DNA of 64,000 nt, from NCBI RefSeq assembly GCF_019139535.1, contig NZ_CP077073.1:939001-1003000 (forward strand), in the 5' to 3' direction. Positions 2,040 through 63,983 of this stretch are shown one piece after another (positions within the stretch are counted from its first letter, which is position 1; the number at the start of each line of letters is the position of its first letter). The notes under the pieces are model-generated. The model was not told where the DNA came from, did not search any database, and saw nothing but the letters and a program-made list of their open reading frames with translations. A program made the translations under genes and the position numbers. Source of the stretch: Pseudomonas muyukensis (lineage in GTDB: Bacteria > Pseudomonadota > Gammaproteobacteria > Pseudomonadales > Pseudomonadaceae).

Positions 2040-2909
2040 ATGCTCAGTGCCGAGCTCAAAGCCTTCTACATGGTGGCCCGCCTGGGCAGCGTCACCTTGG
2101 CGGCGAAGAAGCTTGGGCTCAGCCAGCCGACGGTGACCACGCAGATTCGCAACCTTGAGAGCCAGTACAACGTCGAGCTGTTCTATCGGGGTGGTCGGCG
2201 TCTGGTATTGAGCGAGGAGGGTGTGCGCTTGCTGCCGTTGGTCAAGGCGTTGTTGCAGCAGGAGGCGGACATCGAGTTCGAGCTGCGTAACAGCGGCCAG
2301 GCCCAGGGCAGCTTGCGCATCGCTGCCACCGCGCCGTACTACATCCTCGACCTGGTGAAGATCTTCCGCGAGCGTCTGCCCCAGGTGGAGGTGGCGGTGG
2401 AGATTGGCAATTCGCAGCAGGTGTTGCAGATGCTGGAGGATTACCGGGTGGACATCGCGGCCTCTTCGCAGCTGCTTGAGGATGCGCGGTTGGTGCGGCG
2501 AGTGTTGGGGACTGATCCGTTGGTGCTGGCGGTGCATCGCAACCACCCGTTGGCCCAGCGTCAGGCGGTGTCGATCGATGCGCTGGCGGGGCATTGCCTG
2601 CTGATGCGCGAGGCCGGTTCGACCACGCGCAAGCTGACTGAACAGATGATGCAGGAGGCGGGGGTCAAGGCTGGGGCGTTGCTGGAGATTGGCAGCCGGG
2701 AGTCGATTCGCGAGGCGGTTTTGCGCAATATCGGGGTCAGTGTCATTGCCCGGCATGAAGTGCCGCATAACCCGGAGTTACGGGTGTTGGCGTTGGAAAA
2801 TGCGCCGGTGATGCATGAGTATCTGTATTGCCTGAAAGAGCGGCGTCAGGCGCGGTTGCCGGCGGCGTTTCTTGGGGTGGCGCAGGAAGTTGTTGGATCG
2901 CAGTTCTGA
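2040..2909 (+). CDS. LysR-family regulator, aminoethylphosphonate-associated type
   Basis: A 289-residue DNA-binding regulator with an N-terminal winged helix-turn-helix (about residues 1-60, including KKLGLSQPTVTTQIRNLE) and a C-terminal effector-binding domain. A GAGG Shine-Dalgarno at 2027-2030 sits 9 nt before the ATG and supports this start. It begins 40 bp after cadA on the same strand, but is more likely linked to the phosphonate-type importer that starts 1 kb downstream, because a LysR family of this kind accompanies 2-aminoethylphosphonate genes in other bacteria. The 1-kb repeat locus separates regulator and transporter, so they are probably not one transcript. The effector is not visible from sequence. 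Confidence 0.82.
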   Translation: MLSAELKAFYMVARLGSVTLAAKKLGLSQPTVTTQIRNLESQYNVELFYRGGRRLVLSEEGVRLLPLVKALLQQEADIEFELRNSGQAQGSLRIAATAPYYILDLVKIFRERLPQVEVAVEIGNSQQVLQMLEDYRVDIAASSQLLEDARLVRRVLGTDPLVLAVHRNHPLAQRQAVSIDALAGHCLLMREAGSTTRKLTEQMMQEAGVKAGALLEIGSRESIREAVLRNIGVSVIARHEVPHNPELRVLALENAPVMHEYLYCLKERRQARLPAAFLGVAQEVVGSQF

Positions 2910-2955
2910 AAGTACTCTTCTCTTGACCGAAAGCCACAAATAACAACGCAACTTC

Positions 2956-2993
2956 CTTGCTCTTGCTCTTGCTCTTGCTCTTGCTCTTGCTCT
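2956..2993. repeat. Hexanucleotide tract (CTTGCT)x6.3
   Basis: Perfect tandem copies of CTTGCT, which is a rotation of AAGAGC on the other strand. It lies 48 nt outside the left structured arm. It is the mirror-image counterpart of the AAAGCC tract outside the right arm. Confidence 0.95.
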
Positions 2994-3041
2994 GTTTTTG
3001 ATTTTGCTTCTAAGCGCGCGATAGTCCAGGCAACACAAATT

Positions 3042-3299
3042 GCGACTTCAGGAGGCCGAGCGGAGTTCTTGCGTAGTGGGGCGACGGCCATGGATGGCCG
3101 TCGAGCGCTGCGCCCCAGGATGGGGCGTACAGCGCGGTACCCACGGGAGCAAGAACGGAGCGAGGGGACCCCGGAGCGAAGCGTAGGGGCCGGATGAATG
3201 GAGCGAGGATTTTTTGGTTCCTTTTTGATCCTTCAAAAAGGGACCCGCCGTAAGGGCGGAAAGGTGACTATGCGTCGCCATCGCCAATGAATGCGCGTA
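3042..3299 (+). repeat. Left arm of a long inverted structured repeat
   Basis: About 258 nt that match the reverse complement of 3415-3673 along their whole length. Local hairpins: H1 at 3083-3091/3094-3102; H2 at 3105-3116/3122-3135 with a 2-nt bulge and loop aggat; H3 at 3220-3228/3233-3241; H4 at 3245-3249/3255-3259. Each stem is fully paired here and also in the other arm although the bases differ. This is covariation, and it argues for selection on secondary structure. Function unknown; no transposase is nearby. Confidence 0.88.
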
Positions 3300-3322
3300 T
3301 AGCTTTCAAAACTCACGCTCTG

Positions 3323-3388
3323 AAAGTCAAAGTCAAAGTCAAAGTCAAAGTCAAAGTCAAAGTCAAAGTCAAAGTCAAAGTCAAAGTC
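3323..3388. repeat. Hexanucleotide tract (AAAGTC)x11
   Basis: Exactly 11 perfect copies of AAAGTC in the loop between the two inverted arms, about 25 nt from each. Tracts like this are prone to slippage, so copy number may vary between strains. Confidence 0.97.
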
Positions 3389-3414
3389 GGTCGGTGTGTG
3401 TATTTACAGGTGTA

Positions 3415-3673
3415 AGCGCATTCATTGGCTATATCGACGCTTAGTCATCTTTTCGCCCTTACGGCGAGTCACTTTTTGTCAAACGCGACAAAAAGTAACC
3501 AAAAAACGCTGCGCTCCATTCATCCGGCCCTACGCTTCGCTCCGGGTTCCCTCACTCCGGCCTTGCTCCCGGGAGGACCGCGCTGTAGGGCCCATCCTGG
3601 GCCCCAGCGCTTGACGGGCATCCATGCCCGTCACCTCCCTACGCAAGGCCTGCGTTCGGCCTCCTGAAGTCGC
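3415..3673 (-). repeat. Right arm of the long inverted structured repeat
   Basis: Inverted partner of 3042-3299. The same four hairpins are kept: H4 at 3453-3457/3463-3467, H3 at 3471-3480/3487-3496 (10 bp perfect), H2 at 3580-3593/3599-3610, and H1 at 3613-3621/3624-3632. In H2 the inner stem is GGGCCC pairing with GGGCCC, whereas the left arm has CGCCCC with GGGGCG, so pairing survives two double changes. Internal loops such as aggat and the CCGGATGAATGGAGCG segment are the most conserved stretches. Confidence 0.88.
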
Positions 3674-3740
3674 GAAGATACGGGCGGCGCCTGGGCTGGC
3701 GCAGCTGTCGCTCGCTGGGGTTGGCGCTAGCCTCTTGATC

Positions 3741-3792
3741 GCCAAAGCCAAAGCCAAAGCCAAAGCCAAAGCCAAAGCCAAAGCCAAAGCCA
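3741..3792. repeat. Hexanucleotide tract (GCCAAA)x8.7
   Basis: Perfect tandem copies of GCCAAA beginning 67 nt outside the right arm. Together with the tracts at 2956 and 3323 this gives a hexamer-arm-hexamer-arm-hexamer arrangement with related units (AAGAGC, AAAGTC, AAAGCC). Confidence 0.95.
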
Positions 3793-3919
3793 GCGGCTCG
3801 CACTTGCATGGCTAGTACAAAATCCATCAATACAACTATCAGCCGCTTTGGCCTCACCGCCATACAACCGTCTCATAGCCTTCCTAGCATGGCCCCCATC
3901 GCTTCGATGAGGACCGGCC

Positions 3920-4978
3920 ATGAACAACGTCACCCCAGGCGCACAGATGAAAGTGCGTGGTATCCACAAACGCTTCGGCGCCTTCACCGCGCTCAACGAC
4001 GTGTCCCTCGACATCGCCGCCGGCGAACTGGTCTGCCTGCTCGGCCCCTCCGGCTGCGGCAAGACCACCCTGCTGCGCTGCATCGCCGGGCTCGAGCGCC
4101 AGGACCGCGGCACCCTGCACATCGGCGAGCGCGACATCTCCGAACTGCCACCCCAGGCCCGCGACTACGGCATCCTGTTCCAGTCCTACGCGCTGTTCCC
4201 CAACCTCACCGTCGAGGCCAACATCGCCTACGGCCTGACCGGCGACAGCCGCGACGCCGCCCGCCAGCGGGTCGCCGAAATGCTCGAACTGGTCGGCCTT
4301 TCGGGCAGCGAAAAGAAATACCCCGGCCAATTGTCCGGCGGCCAGCAACAACGCGTCGCCCTGGCCCGCGCCCTGGCCCCCAAACCCTCGCTGCTGCTGC
4401 TCGACGAACCGATGTCGGCACTCGACGCCCGGGTGCGCGAGCACCTGTGCACCGAGCTGCGCCAACTGCAGCGCCAGCTCGGCATCACCACCCTGATGGT
4501 TACCCACAACCAGGACGAAGCCATGCTGATGGCCGACCGCATCGCCGTGATGAACAACGGCCAGGTCGAGCAGTACGCCACCCCCCAGGAAATCTACGAC
4601 CAGCCGGCCACGCCGTTCGTCGCCGAGTTCGTCGGCCAAGGCAACTGGCTGCCGTTCCAGCGCAGCGGCGACAGCCATGCCCAGGTCGGCGGCATGCACA
4701 TGCGCCTGGCGAGCAACGCCGGGGGCGCCAGCAGCGGCCGCCTGTTCTGCCGCCCCGAGGCGATCACCGTCAACCCGCTGGTGCACGAGGAAAACCTGTT
4801 CCCGGCCAAAGTCCGCGAAATCACCTTCCTCGGCAACCGCTGCCGCATGAGCTTCGAACTCATGGCCCTGCCGGGCCACGCGCTGCTCGCCGAGCTGGCG
4901 CCGGAGGCCATGCCGCGCCTGGGCTCGCAGGACATCTGGGTGGCGCTGCCGCCGCACAGCCTGCAGGTGTTTGCCTGA
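3920..4978 (+). CDS. phnT: ABC importer ATPase, 2-aminoethylphosphonate type (PhnT)
   Basis: Cytoplasmic ATP-hydrolysing subunit (352 aa) of a binding-protein-dependent importer. Visible motifs: Walker A GPSGCGKTT near residue 42, signature LSGGQQQR, Walker B LLLLDEP, and the switch histidine in VTHNQDEA. A C-terminal regulatory (TOBE-like) region follows from about residue 270. The length and the permease/binding-protein partners fit the PhnT family of aminoethylphosphonate importers; iron or putrescine importers share this fold and are the main alternatives. The ATG is preceded by GAGGAC. The permease begins just past the stop, so the subunits are probably translated together. Confidence 0.82.
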   Translation: MNNVTPGAQMKVRGIHKRFGAFTALNDVSLDIAAGELVCLLGPSGCGKTTLLRCIAGLERQDRGTLHIGERDISELPPQARDYGILFQSYALFPNLTVEANIAYGLTGDSRDAARQRVAEMLELVGLSGSEKKYPGQLSGGQQQRVALARALAPKPSLLLLDEPMSALDARVREHLCTELRQLQRQLGITTLMVTHNQDEAMLMADRIAVMNNGQVEQYATPQEIYDQPATPFVAEFVGQGNWLPFQRSGDSHAQVGGMHMRLASNAGGASSGRLFCRPEAITVNPLVHEENLFPAKVREITFLGNRCRMSFELMALPGHALLAELAPEAMPRLGSQDIWVALPPHSLQVFA

Positions 4979-61359: not shown

Positions 61360-63813
61360 TTAGAACAGGTCCATCGGCGCCGCTTCATCCGCCGGCAGCG
61401 GGCTGCCTGGTGCCGCGCCATTGCCCAGTTCGTCCACCGAAGGCGGCGAATCCTCGGCCTTGAACAGCTCGAAGTAGGCATTCGGCGTGCTCGGGGTGGC
61501 GGCGCGGCCGCTCACTGGATCAACGCGCAGGCTGAGAATGCCCTCGGGCTCGGCAGGCGCATGCTCGGGCATGCCCTTGAGGGCGGCGCCCATGAAACTC
61601 ATCCAGATCGGCAGGGCCACGGTGCCGCCGTACTCGCGGCGGCCCAGGGTTTCCGGCTGGTCGAAGCCGACCCATACGGTGGTGACGTAGTCGGCGTTGT
61701 AACCGGAGAACCAGGCGTCCTTGGACTCGTTGGTGGTGCCGGTCTTGCCTGCCAGGTCGGTACGGCCCAGGGCCAGTGCCCGGCGGCCGGTACCGCGCTT
61801 GATCACATCCTGCAGCATGCTGGTGAGGATGTACGCGGTGCGCCCGTCGATGATCTGCTCGGCCACTGCCGGCGCCTGCGGCGCAGCCGCGACCTGGCCA
61901 TAGGCCGATGGCGCCTCGCCGGGTACCGGGGCGACGCTGATCGGCTGCTCGGGCGCGGCGAGACCGGCCTGGTCCTGGCTGCCCTGGGGCACGCGCGCCG
62001 GGTTGGCGGTGAACAGCGTCTCGCCGTTGCGGCTGTCGATGCGCTCGATCAGGTAGGGGTTGATCTTGTAGCCGCCGTTGGCGAAGGCGCTCCAGCCGGT
62101 GGCGATCTCCATTGGCGTCAGCGTCGCGGTGCCCAGTGCCAGCGACAGGTTGCGCGGCAGGTCTTGCTTGTTGAAGCCGAACTTGGCGATGTAGTCGATG
62201 GTGCGGTCCACGCCCATGGCTTGCAGCAGGCGGATCGACACCAGGTTACGTGACTTGTACAGCGCCTCGCGCATGCGGATCGGGCCGAGGAAGGTGTTGG
62301 TGTCGTTCTTCGGACGCCAGACCTTGTCCAGGTATTCGTCGACGAACACGATCGGTGCGTCGTTGACCAGGCTGGCGGCGGTGTAGCCGTTGTCCAGGGC
62401 AGCGCTATAGACGAAAGGCTTGAAGCTCGAGCCCGGCTGGCGCTTGGCCTGCATGGCACGGTTGTAGTTGCTCTGCTCGAACGAGAAGCCGCCGACCAGG
62501 GCGCGGATGGCGCCATCGCGGGGGTCGAGGGTGACCAGTGCGCTCTGCGCGCCCGGCACCTGGCTGAACTTGAGCGTGCCGTCCTCCAGGCGCTGCAGGC
62601 GCACCAGGTCGCCGACCTGGGCGACATCGGCCGGGGCTTGCGGCGCGCGGCCCTGGGCGTTGTTGTTGAGGTACGGCCGGGCCCACTTCATGGTGTCCCA
62701 GGCCACGGTCTCTTCCAGGCCGGCGCGGGTCATCACCTTCAGGCCGGTCTTCTCGACCTGGGTGACGATCGCCGGCTCCAGGCCGCCGAGGGTGCGTTGC
62801 TTGCCCAGGTCCTGCAGCCAGGCGGCGCGGGTCTTGCCTGGGAAGCGCGCTTCCGGGCCACGGTAGCCGTGGCGCTCGTCGTATACGCTAAGGCCGTTGA
62901 GCACAGCGTTGTTGGCCATTTGCTGGGTGGCGCTGGGCACCGTGGTGGTGACGCGGAAACCTTCGGTATAGGCGTCGCTGCCGTAGCGGCCGACCATCTC
63001 GGCGCGGGCCATCTCGGCCACGTAGGGGGCGCTCACTTCCGGGGTCGGCACGTGGTAGCTGGCGTTCAGTGGCTCGGCCAGGGCGGCCTGGTAACTGGCC
63101 TCGTCGATCTTGCCGAGCTTGTACATGCGCCCGAGGATCCAGTCGCGGCGCTCCTTGGCACGCACCGGGTTGGCCAGCGGGTTGAAGCGCGACGGCGCCT
63201 TCGGCAGGCCGGCGATCATGGCCATCTGCGCCAGGCTGACATCGCGGATCGACTTGCCGTAGTACACCTGCGCCGCGGCATCGATGCCGTAGGCGCGGTT
63301 ACCCAGGTAGATCTTGTTGACGTACAGCTCGAGGATCTCGTCCTTGGTCAGCTCGCGCTCGATCTGCAGGGCCAGGAGGATCTCGTTGGTCTTGCGCGAA
63401 AAGCTGCGTTCGCTGGTCAGGAAGAAGTTCTTCGCCACCTGCATGGTGATGGTGCTGCCGCCGGTCTGGATATGCCCGGACTTGAGCAGCTGCGACGCGG
63501 CGCGCATCAGGCTGCTGGGGTCGACGCCGTAGTGGTTGAGGAAATTGTCGTCCTCGGCAGACAGAAGCGCCTGGATGAACTGTGGGGGAATTTCCTGGAA
63601 CTTGATGGGCGAGCGGCGCATTTCGCCGAACTCGGCGATCAGCTTGCCGTCGCTGCTGTAGACCCTCAGGGGGATTTGCAACTGGACGCTTCTGAGTGCG
63701 TCGACCGAGGGCAGGCTGGGACTAAGATACAGAAACGCACCGCTCACACCGAGTACGAGCGCGCAGATGACTGCGACGAAAGACCACCAGAAGAACTTCA
63801 GCAGGCGTATCAA
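61360..63813 (-). CDS. ponA: Penicillin-binding protein 1A
   Basis: Bifunctional inner-membrane enzyme that polymerises and cross-links peptidoglycan. 817 residues: a membrane helix (about 8-30); a GT51 domain with catalytic glutamate in SAEDDNFLNHYGVD and GGSTITMQVAKNFF; an OB-like insertion; and a transpeptidase domain with SxxK in QPGSSFKPF, SRN in KSRNLVS and KTGTT. Pro/Ala-rich linkers occur near 640-680 and at the C-terminus. Divergent from probable pilM, the conserved layout in gamma-proteobacteria. Confidence 0.97.
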   Translation of the reverse strand: MIRLLKFFWWSFVAVICALVLGVSGAFLYLSPSLPSVDALRSVQLQIPLRVYSSDGKLIAEFGEMRRSPIKFQEIPPQFIQALLSAEDDNFLNHYGVDPSSLMRAASQLLKSGHIQTGGSTITMQVAKNFFLTSERSFSRKTNEILLALQIERELTKDEILELYVNKIYLGNRAYGIDAAAQVYYGKSIRDVSLAQMAMIAGLPKAPSRFNPLANPVRAKERRDWILGRMYKLGKIDEASYQAALAEPLNASYHVPTPEVSAPYVAEMARAEMVGRYGSDAYTEGFRVTTTVPSATQQMANNAVLNGLSVYDERHGYRGPEARFPGKTRAAWLQDLGKQRTLGGLEPAIVTQVEKTGLKVMTRAGLEETVAWDTMKWARPYLNNNAQGRAPQAPADVAQVGDLVRLQRLEDGTLKFSQVPGAQSALVTLDPRDGAIRALVGGFSFEQSNYNRAMQAKRQPGSSFKPFVYSAALDNGYTAASLVNDAPIVFVDEYLDKVWRPKNDTNTFLGPIRMREALYKSRNLVSIRLLQAMGVDRTIDYIAKFGFNKQDLPRNLSLALGTATLTPMEIATGWSAFANGGYKINPYLIERIDSRNGETLFTANPARVPQGSQDQAGLAAPEQPISVAPVPGEAPSAYGQVAAAPQAPAVAEQIIDGRTAYILTSMLQDVIKRGTGRRALALGRTDLAGKTGTTNESKDAWFSGYNADYVTTVWVGFDQPETLGRREYGGTVALPIWMSFMGAALKGMPEHAPAEPEGILSLRVDPVSGRAATPSTPNAYFELFKAEDSPPSVDELGNGAAPGSPLPADEAAPMDLF

Positions 63814-63983
63814 GGCTTTGGGGTGTCCTGGTTGAGGAGTGGAGGGCGCGAGGGGCCGGCGGACGGGAAAATTCGCTGGGCATTATAAGCATTTTTCGCC
63901 CCGCCGGGTGACCGCCCGGGGCGGCGCGGCGACCGCCTGCAGCGCAATGGCACGGGCTGCGCACGACAGGGAAGTGACAGTCA

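Follow-up and report, generated by a model that had tools for sequence, protein, structure and literature searches.

Layout of the Locus

The window analyzed in this study is a 64,000-nt stretch of the Pseudomonas muyukensis genome, which consists of a single contig of 5.53 Mb (referred to here as G000). Two arms in inverted orientation (Table 1) lie between an ORF ending at position 2909 and an ORF starting at position 3920, whose translations read as a LysR-type protein and an ABC transporter, respectively. As claimed in a preliminary description of this pair (locus L040 here), the arms of about 258 nt align from end to end, and each contains the four hairpin sequences given there; their identity is approximately 83%. 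Neither arm of the pair is overlapped by an ORF of at least 100 aa.

A scan of positions 2880–3900 with a simple sigma-70 consensus, applied to this locus alone, revealed no promoter-like site. A simple terminator scan of the locus identified three terminator-like sites, compared with 1.8 expected, only on the strands opposite the arms; opposite each arm, H4 with a T run after it resembles a terminator. A plain small RNA (sRNA) gene was considered and rejected, as neither a promoter-like site nor a sense terminator was found here. Elsewhere in the window (63541–63834), Rfam asponA, an antisense RNA to ponA, was matched at 142.9 bits, which is an ordinary occurrence.

Table 1. Features of the paired element in the window (positions are those of the window)
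Feature	Position	Strand	Basis
Arm A (A-type), 258-nt structured repeat	3042–3299	+	One of 40 full-length genome copies; fold
Arm B (B-type), 259-nt structured repeat, inverted	3415–3673	-	Repeat search; RNA folding
Arm A TwoAYGGAY-like domain, P0 around H1 and H2	3056–3165	+	RF01731 match at 3078–3141, 42.6 bits
Arm A closing helix P0, two G.A/A.G motifs	About 3056–3080 with 3139–3165	+	Covariation
Arm A hairpin H1, loop ATGGAT (CATGGATG)	3083–3102	+	Covariation, loop table
Arm A hairpin H2, loop AGGAT (CAGGATG), bulged	3104–3135	+	Covariation, loop table
Arm A small hairpin between H2 and H3, CCCC/GGGG	3169–3189, approximate	+	Alignment helix 8
Arm A hairpin H3, GGTTCCTTTTTGA/TCAAAAAGGGACC	3216–3245	+	Covariation
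Arm A hairpin H4, CCGCC-GTAAG-GGCGG; terminator-like on opposite strand	3245–3259	+	Covariation, terminator scan
Arm B hairpin H1, loop ATGGAT	3613–3632	-	Hairpin sequence read
Arm B hairpin H2, loop AGGAT	3580–3611	-	RF01731 match at 3576–3635, 41.4 bits
Arm B hairpin H3	3467–3500	-	Hairpin sequence read
Arm B hairpin H4; terminator-like on opposite strand	3453–3467	-	Terminator scan
Left tandem tract (CTTGCT)n, 6.3 copies	2956–2993	.	TRF
Core tandem tract (AAAGTC)n, 11 copies	3323–3388	.	TRF
Right tandem tract (AAAGCC)n	3744–3791	.	TRF
5′ flank of arm A, GCTTCTAAGCGCGCGATAG..CAGGC..AATT; common to most A-type arms, L047 deviates	3003–3041	+	By eye, flanks of 20 pairs
5′ flank of arm B; common to B-type arms, short or long form	3674–3742	-	By eye, flanks of 20 pairs

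Copies, Pairs, and Tandem Tracts in the Genome

A search of the P. muyukensis genome with arm A found 46 places, comprising 40 full-length arms and six fragments (40 of 55 candidates scored). Likewise, 40 arms were identified by the Rfam TwoAYGGAY model (RF01731), which at E ≤ 0.01 had no further match in the 150 of 239 candidates that were scored, and by R1, a model of P0, H1, and H2 (150 of 5648 candidates scored). These arms form 20 inverted pairs, always of an A-type arm with a B-type arm, and all 20 pairs share with REPINs the inverted pair as unit. The inverted layout reported for the window is present there, and genome-wide it occurs in two orientations, with 11 convergent and nine divergent pairs, whose orders look like circular permutations of one arrangement. 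A remnant of a third arm is found at three loci (L048, L051, and L053).

The pairs are intergenic according to a crude ORF call in which ORFs outside the element were scored; by the same call a flanking gene is directed into the element at 17 of 20 loci, and the orientation relative to the flanking genes is variable. When ORFs of at least 100 aa overlapping an arm by at least 30 nt were considered, four of 20 loci (L040, L041, L054, and L042) were free of them, and those elsewhere are mostly short or antisense to a called gene. At L053, a 228-aa ORF of gene-like composition may extend 102 nt into an arm.

The preliminary description also noted bracketing hexamer tracts, which proved to be general: TRF detected arrays to the left of 18, inside 19, and to the right of all 20 pairs (the one to the right of L059 being weak), with period 6 as the commonest (39 of 57 sites). 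As a control, 11 arrays were found in 52 kb of these loci away from the elements. Of the 11 convergent pairs in P. muyukensis, 10 have the unit (AAAGTC)n in their core according to TRF. The units of the outer tracts vary among loci L040–L060, with periods from 3 to 11, many of them G/T- or C/A-rich and some telomere-like, and they vary between orthologous loci of this genome and a nearer relative (G109) as well.

Fold and Covariation of the Arms

An alignment (A2) of 61 arms was compiled from the two window arms and 59 arms of 35 loci in other genomes of the genus; eight of 67 arms (both arms of L074, L075, L078, and L081) were left out as their apical part differs. With a 50-pair structure, 93.0% of cells are paired in these 61 arms. 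The covariation score, which is drawn from related sequences and not from independent events, is 0.436, compared with 0.154 for shuffled alignments (0 of 500 shuffles as high) and 0.052–0.084 for slid helices. The slid control flatters the fold because the structure came from the same alignment, and the gap is still large. The compensatory double changes first described between the two window arms are real and extend to 40 of 50 pairs. RNA folding of the window arms gave z-scores of −5.8 and −6.7 relative to shuffled sequences, a stability that none of 200 shuffles reached.

The data strongly support selection on a fold, as had been proposed for the four hairpins. The fold is larger than in that proposal, which missed P0, a long closing helix; a further small hairpin stands in the H2–H3 interval. 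P0 encloses H1 and H2 to give a three-way junction and holds two symmetric G.A/A.G motifs, one at columns 24–150/26–148 (56 of 61 arms each) and one at columns 35–139/37–137 (48 and 42 of 61 arms). In the 61 arms, 148 cells hold G-U and 27 hold A-C, or 73 and 24 without H3; in a set of non-Pseudomonas matches (see below) the numbers are 46 and 23. These counts again come from related sequences, and the excess suggests that the arm's own strand is favored as the folding strand.

Distribution and Pairing in Other Genomes

A DNA search with arm A found the repeat in 105 of 119 genomes of the genus (six candidates scored per genome), and R1 in 102 of 119 (30 candidates scored each), some of which had contributed to R1. 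The outcome that would have spoken against a conserved fold, namely a lack of further copies or changes that break the stems as often as they preserve them, did not occur. R1 was built from 39 arms, after six more arms (with another module, or from L077) and a further 16 that included many near-duplicates were dropped from the alignment. Named Pseudomonas records, for example P. kilonensis, carry the same kind of element.

At the class level, R1 was found in 10 of 143 genomes, P. muyukensis included (25 candidates scored per genome). In five genomes of other families the stem sequences are quite different, and the covariation of 47 matches is 0.796 compared with at most 0.094 for slid helices, in an alignment that was fitted to R1 and includes one overlapping pair of loci. 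By eye, an H3-like hairpin (e.g., TTTTTTGGTGACTTTTTG...CAAAAAGTTACTCGC) follows the arms of G217, G257, G140, G256, and L275, and none follows those of L273, L276, L277, L122, L143, L171, L173, L115, and L180. A pattern scan checked with R1 included, among the matches listed, Stenotrophomonas, Xanthomonas, Luteimonas, Marinobacter, Saccharospirillum, Alteromonas, and one Ruminiclostridium record.

Pairing is common outside P. muyukensis. In other genomes of the genus an opposite-strand partner is present at 33 of 40 fetched loci (16 convergent and 17 divergent), a rate that applies to this sample, chosen from arm A matches; at L066, L070, L082, and L083 the partner is merely a piece of 51–86 nt. 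Two of the seven loci lacking a partner reach a contig end. In the five genomes of other families, R1 identified a partner within 900 nt at 13 of 29 loci (an overlapping pair of loci included), nine divergent and four convergent, and no such close partner at the other 16. In one of these genomes (G217), blastn added partners at about 100 nt (at most 120 nt) for L280 and L289 and at 1.15 kb for L307; six of its seven fetched loci are close divergent pairs, again with two arm types. A gene between the arms as driver of the element was considered and rejected: none was noticed in the cores inspected, and ORFs were called at two non-Pseudomonas loci.

Relation to TwoAYGGAY and Other Known Elements

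All 40 arms of P. muyukensis match the Rfam family TwoAYGGAY (RF01731) at 36.6–46.9 bits, and six of them exceed its gathering cut-off of 43 bits; the window arms (Table 1) fall narrowly below it. At other loci the scores reach 53.7 bits, with seven arms in four of 16 scanned loci above the cut-off. The claim that the element resembles none with a name is not supported for the H1–H2 part; for the whole paired element with its tracts, no other Rfam family was matched with any weight. Rfam clan CL00106 groups CsrA-binding RNAs. TwoAYGGAY is listed in a table of candidates as "probably" an RNA and probably not cis-regulatory (PMC2864571), and the available part of a paper of 2014 predicts that it binds CsrA and describes a stem with two tandem G.A motifs (PMC4333381). 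The core of the element therefore corresponds to a known motif with a published CsrA prediction. Like TwoAYGGAY, the arms have two hairpins with GGA terminal loops, ATGGAT and AGGAT in both window arms, and we read the G.A/A.G motifs of P0 as probably the two tandem G.A motifs of that stem.

Different from TwoAYGGAY, the arms continue through the small hairpin, H3, and H4, and they are repeated, arranged in inverted pairs, and set in tandem tracts, none of which is mentioned for RF01731 in the accessible parts of these sources. In open-licence papers, through several searches that were narrow, no account was found of a 258-nt arm with H3/H4, of its inverted pairs, of the variable tracts, or of similar pairs in other gammaproteobacterial families. 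The R0–R200 repeats of P. fluorescens are likewise intergenic Pseudomonas repeats, some with inverted repeats, whereas no such multi-helix fold or RsmA site is described for them in the available part of that study (PMC2718517). Compared by description, R178 (101 bp) or R200 (320 bp) could overlap the element.

RsmX/RsmY/RsmZ and CsrB/CsrC are dedicated sRNA genes, whereas the element consists of dozens of dispersed repeats, with no promoter found in the scan of the window locus. Similar to the arms, these sRNAs contain multiple GGA-in-loop sites for RsmA/CsrA, as described in the accessible text of PMC4333381.

Conserved GGA Loops and Candidate RsmA/CsrA Sites

GGA is present in both the H1 and H2 loops of 56 of the 61 aligned arms despite changes in the stems, in settings such as CATGGATG, CAGGGATG, CAAGGATG, CAGGACG, CAGGATG, or GCAGGAGC. 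Among the non-Pseudomonas matches it occurs in 46 of 47 at each loop, under a model that itself favors GGA. The RsmA/RsmE consensus is given as (A/U)CANGGANG(U/A) in the available part of PMC4353343, and the CsrA SELEX consensus as RUACARGGAUGU in that of PMC7652899. In both window arms, H1 (CATGGATG) carries the core CANGGANG and H2 (CAGGATG) is without the N after CA; in each hairpin the outer A/U position is C or G. The two GGA motifs are 19–26 nt apart in the 56 arms, and CsrA bridges sites 10–63 nt apart with an optimum above 18 nt (PMC7652899, accessible text), which suits one RsmA/CsrA dimer on both sites. Three CsrA-family genes were identified in the P. muyukensis genome, and at least one in each of eight genomes tested.

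We favor, as slightly more likely than not, the reading that these elements are REPIN-like inverted pairs whose arms encode a predicted docking RNA for the RsmA/CsrA dimer. Each arm would encode a structured RNA on its own sense strand, in which the P0-closed three-way junction would present two loops, each an RsmA/RsmE (CsrA)-like site of the form CA(N)GGA(N)G, followed by H3 and H4, and one RsmA/CsrA dimer may hold both sites. Because the arms are inverted, a transcript from either side would carry one arm in sense, and a read-through or 3′-UTR transcript would thereby gain an RsmA docking module; the loci together may act as a dispersed reservoir for titration. As in REPINs, the unit of inheritance would be the inverted pair rather than one arm, and the likeness of copies within a genome may be kept by gene conversion or turnover. 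The lack of a sigma-70 promoter in the scan of the window locus counts against a docking RNA, as do the 16 of 29 non-Pseudomonas loci without a close partner. In addition, if a whole pair were transcribed, its 83% identical arms could base-pair with one another, which would mask the loops.

Arms With Another Apical Module

The five aligned arms outside the 56 are without GGA loops. Judged by eye, L074, L075, and L078 bear another apical module on the same scaffold in both arms and L081 does so in its right arm; the apical part of the left arm of L081 is missing. The loci L074, L075, L078, L081, L098, L099, L101, and L103 have the same H3/H4 and an apical module often with GCGYAGC-like loops. 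To judge from these sequences, the replaced modules may represent domains swapped on a shared scaffold. At E ≤ 0.01, no Rfam family was matched on the module-swapped arms, and R1 gave no match at E ≤ 1e-4 in two genomes (G024 and G025; 30 candidates scored each), though CsrA genes are present in both. One genome (G089) contains GGA-less arms in L099 plus six GGA-type matches. C4 antisense RNA and c4-a1b1, which are typical of P4-like satellite phages, were matched near swapped arms at L101 (567–754) and L103 (1716–1912), with c4-a1b1 below the cut-off in L103.

Since GGA-less arms are kept in some species, the GGA loops seem not to be required for persistence of the element, and this is the strongest fact against the docking-RNA reading. 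The retention of H3/H4 in arms without the GGA module would also fit a role in transcription insulation or 3′-end processing, in which H3 and H4 would stop or stabilize transcripts entering from either side and RsmA would be uninvolved. The position of the loci between genes and the terminator-like H4 with its T run opposite each window arm are consistent with such a role, which we nevertheless consider unlikely, given that terminator matches are barely above chance, that the orientation to flanking genes varies, and that the conserved GGA loops and P0 would be left unexplained.

History, Recombination, and Insertions

The two genes that flank the window locus are adjacent to each other in at least 14 of the 38 relatives searched. 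The gap between these genes is 32–175 nt in 13 of them, compared with about 930 nt in P. muyukensis, and 395 nt, mostly N, in G007. No arm was found by blastn in the five of the 13 short gaps that were examined. Element-free orthologous sites indicate that the element was gained here or lost in the relatives, and the readable ones are too diverged to define a target-site duplication. A plasmid- or phage-borne element was considered and rejected: no match to a phage was found, and the single plasmid match spans 60 bases.

For nine of the 20 loci, including the window locus, both flanks were found together at a single locus of the nearer relative G109, with the element present and with flank identity of about 87–97%. 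Eight of these nine loci were used for a comparison of orthologues (L059 was omitted, as its G109 arm is interrupted), in which 15 of 16 arms resemble a paralogue in the P. muyukensis genome more closely than their G109 orthologue, a pattern of concerted evolution. At two of 20 loci, L049 (with L237/L239) and L051 (with L240/L241), the flanks are split across two G109 element loci. These may be rearrangement breakpoints at repeats, as expected from recombination between copies; one-sided flank matches may reflect the extent of the fetched G109 stretches.

Two kinds of insert were observed in G109. A 1.45-kb insert lies in the H4 loop of B-type arms (L251, positions 1402–2847; also L233, L237, and L243), with CGT on both sides and an extra A in one copy, and the translations of its two ORFs resemble an IS3-type orfA/orfB pair. 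The H4 hairpin of A-type arms (L231, L237, L246, and L248) holds a MITE-like insert of about 0.2 kb, which has the ends AGCCCTTTCAAGG and part of the target on both sides. Two unrelated elements seem to use H4 as a landing site.

Recombination between arms, evident in the 15 of 16 arms closer to a paralogue, and the long perfect palindromes of some stems would be expected if covariation were neutral, with template-switch (quasipalindrome) mutation and gene conversion keeping palindromes paired and the fold unselected. This explanation appears very improbable to us because it accounts neither for the conserved loops and the G.A/A.G motifs of P0, nor for the G-U excess over A-C, nor for the recurrence of this junction in families whose stems differ in sequence.

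The element-free sites in relatives would fit a reading at the DNA level only, that of a large REPIN-like pair forming single-stranded DNA hairpins handled by transposase or replication enzymes, with the GGA loops marking recognition by that enzyme and not by RsmA. REPINs are RAYT-associated and intergenic, have the inverted pair of REP doublets as their replicative unit, and occur in many copies that are alike within a genome (PMC3116915, in its accessible part). This precedent, the inverted pair as unit at all 20 loci of P. muyukensis and commonly elsewhere, and the two alternative pair orientations are in line with the DNA-level reading; the persistence of arms with replaced apical modules, where the scaffold seemingly survives without RsmA sites, keeps it alive. 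Different from REPINs, the element has arms of about 250 nt instead of a short REP, a multi-helix fold, conserved loops, and two pair orientations. The arms are several times longer than REPs of 20–40 bp (PMC3733652, available text), the cores inspected are short with no enzyme gene noticed in them, the nine loci in place in G109 at its level of flank identity argue for slow movement, and the loop conservation fits a known RNA-binding protein. We regard an exclusively DNA-level element as rather unlikely. It could also be that a selfish pair has its RNA tied to a global RNA-binding protein, in which case the DNA-level and docking-RNA readings would both be true.

Implications

A broader and more doubtful proposal, which we put forward tentatively, is that these repeats are an ancient gammaproteobacterial class of paired RNA repeats, with an inverted pair of unequal TwoAYGGAY-type arms, convergent or divergent, as its conserved unit. 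Such pairs would form a distributed RsmA/CsrA reservoir that reads intergenic transcription from either side, and would additionally reshape chromosomes as hubs of recombination.

In Gammaproteobacteria, the Csr/Rsm system acts as a global switch whose buffering is attributed to a few dedicated sRNAs. If the dozens of dispersed arms carry RsmA sites as well, intergenic transcription and the copy number of the repeat, which varies among species, would influence how many binding sites a cell contains. Multi-mapping short reads are often dropped, and such repeats may therefore have been overlooked. If true, the docking-RNA reading would give a role to TwoAYGGAY, a long-uncharacterized family with no function assigned in Rfam, and would reveal a repeat family in which selection keeps the inverted pair and the RNA fold, not the sequence.
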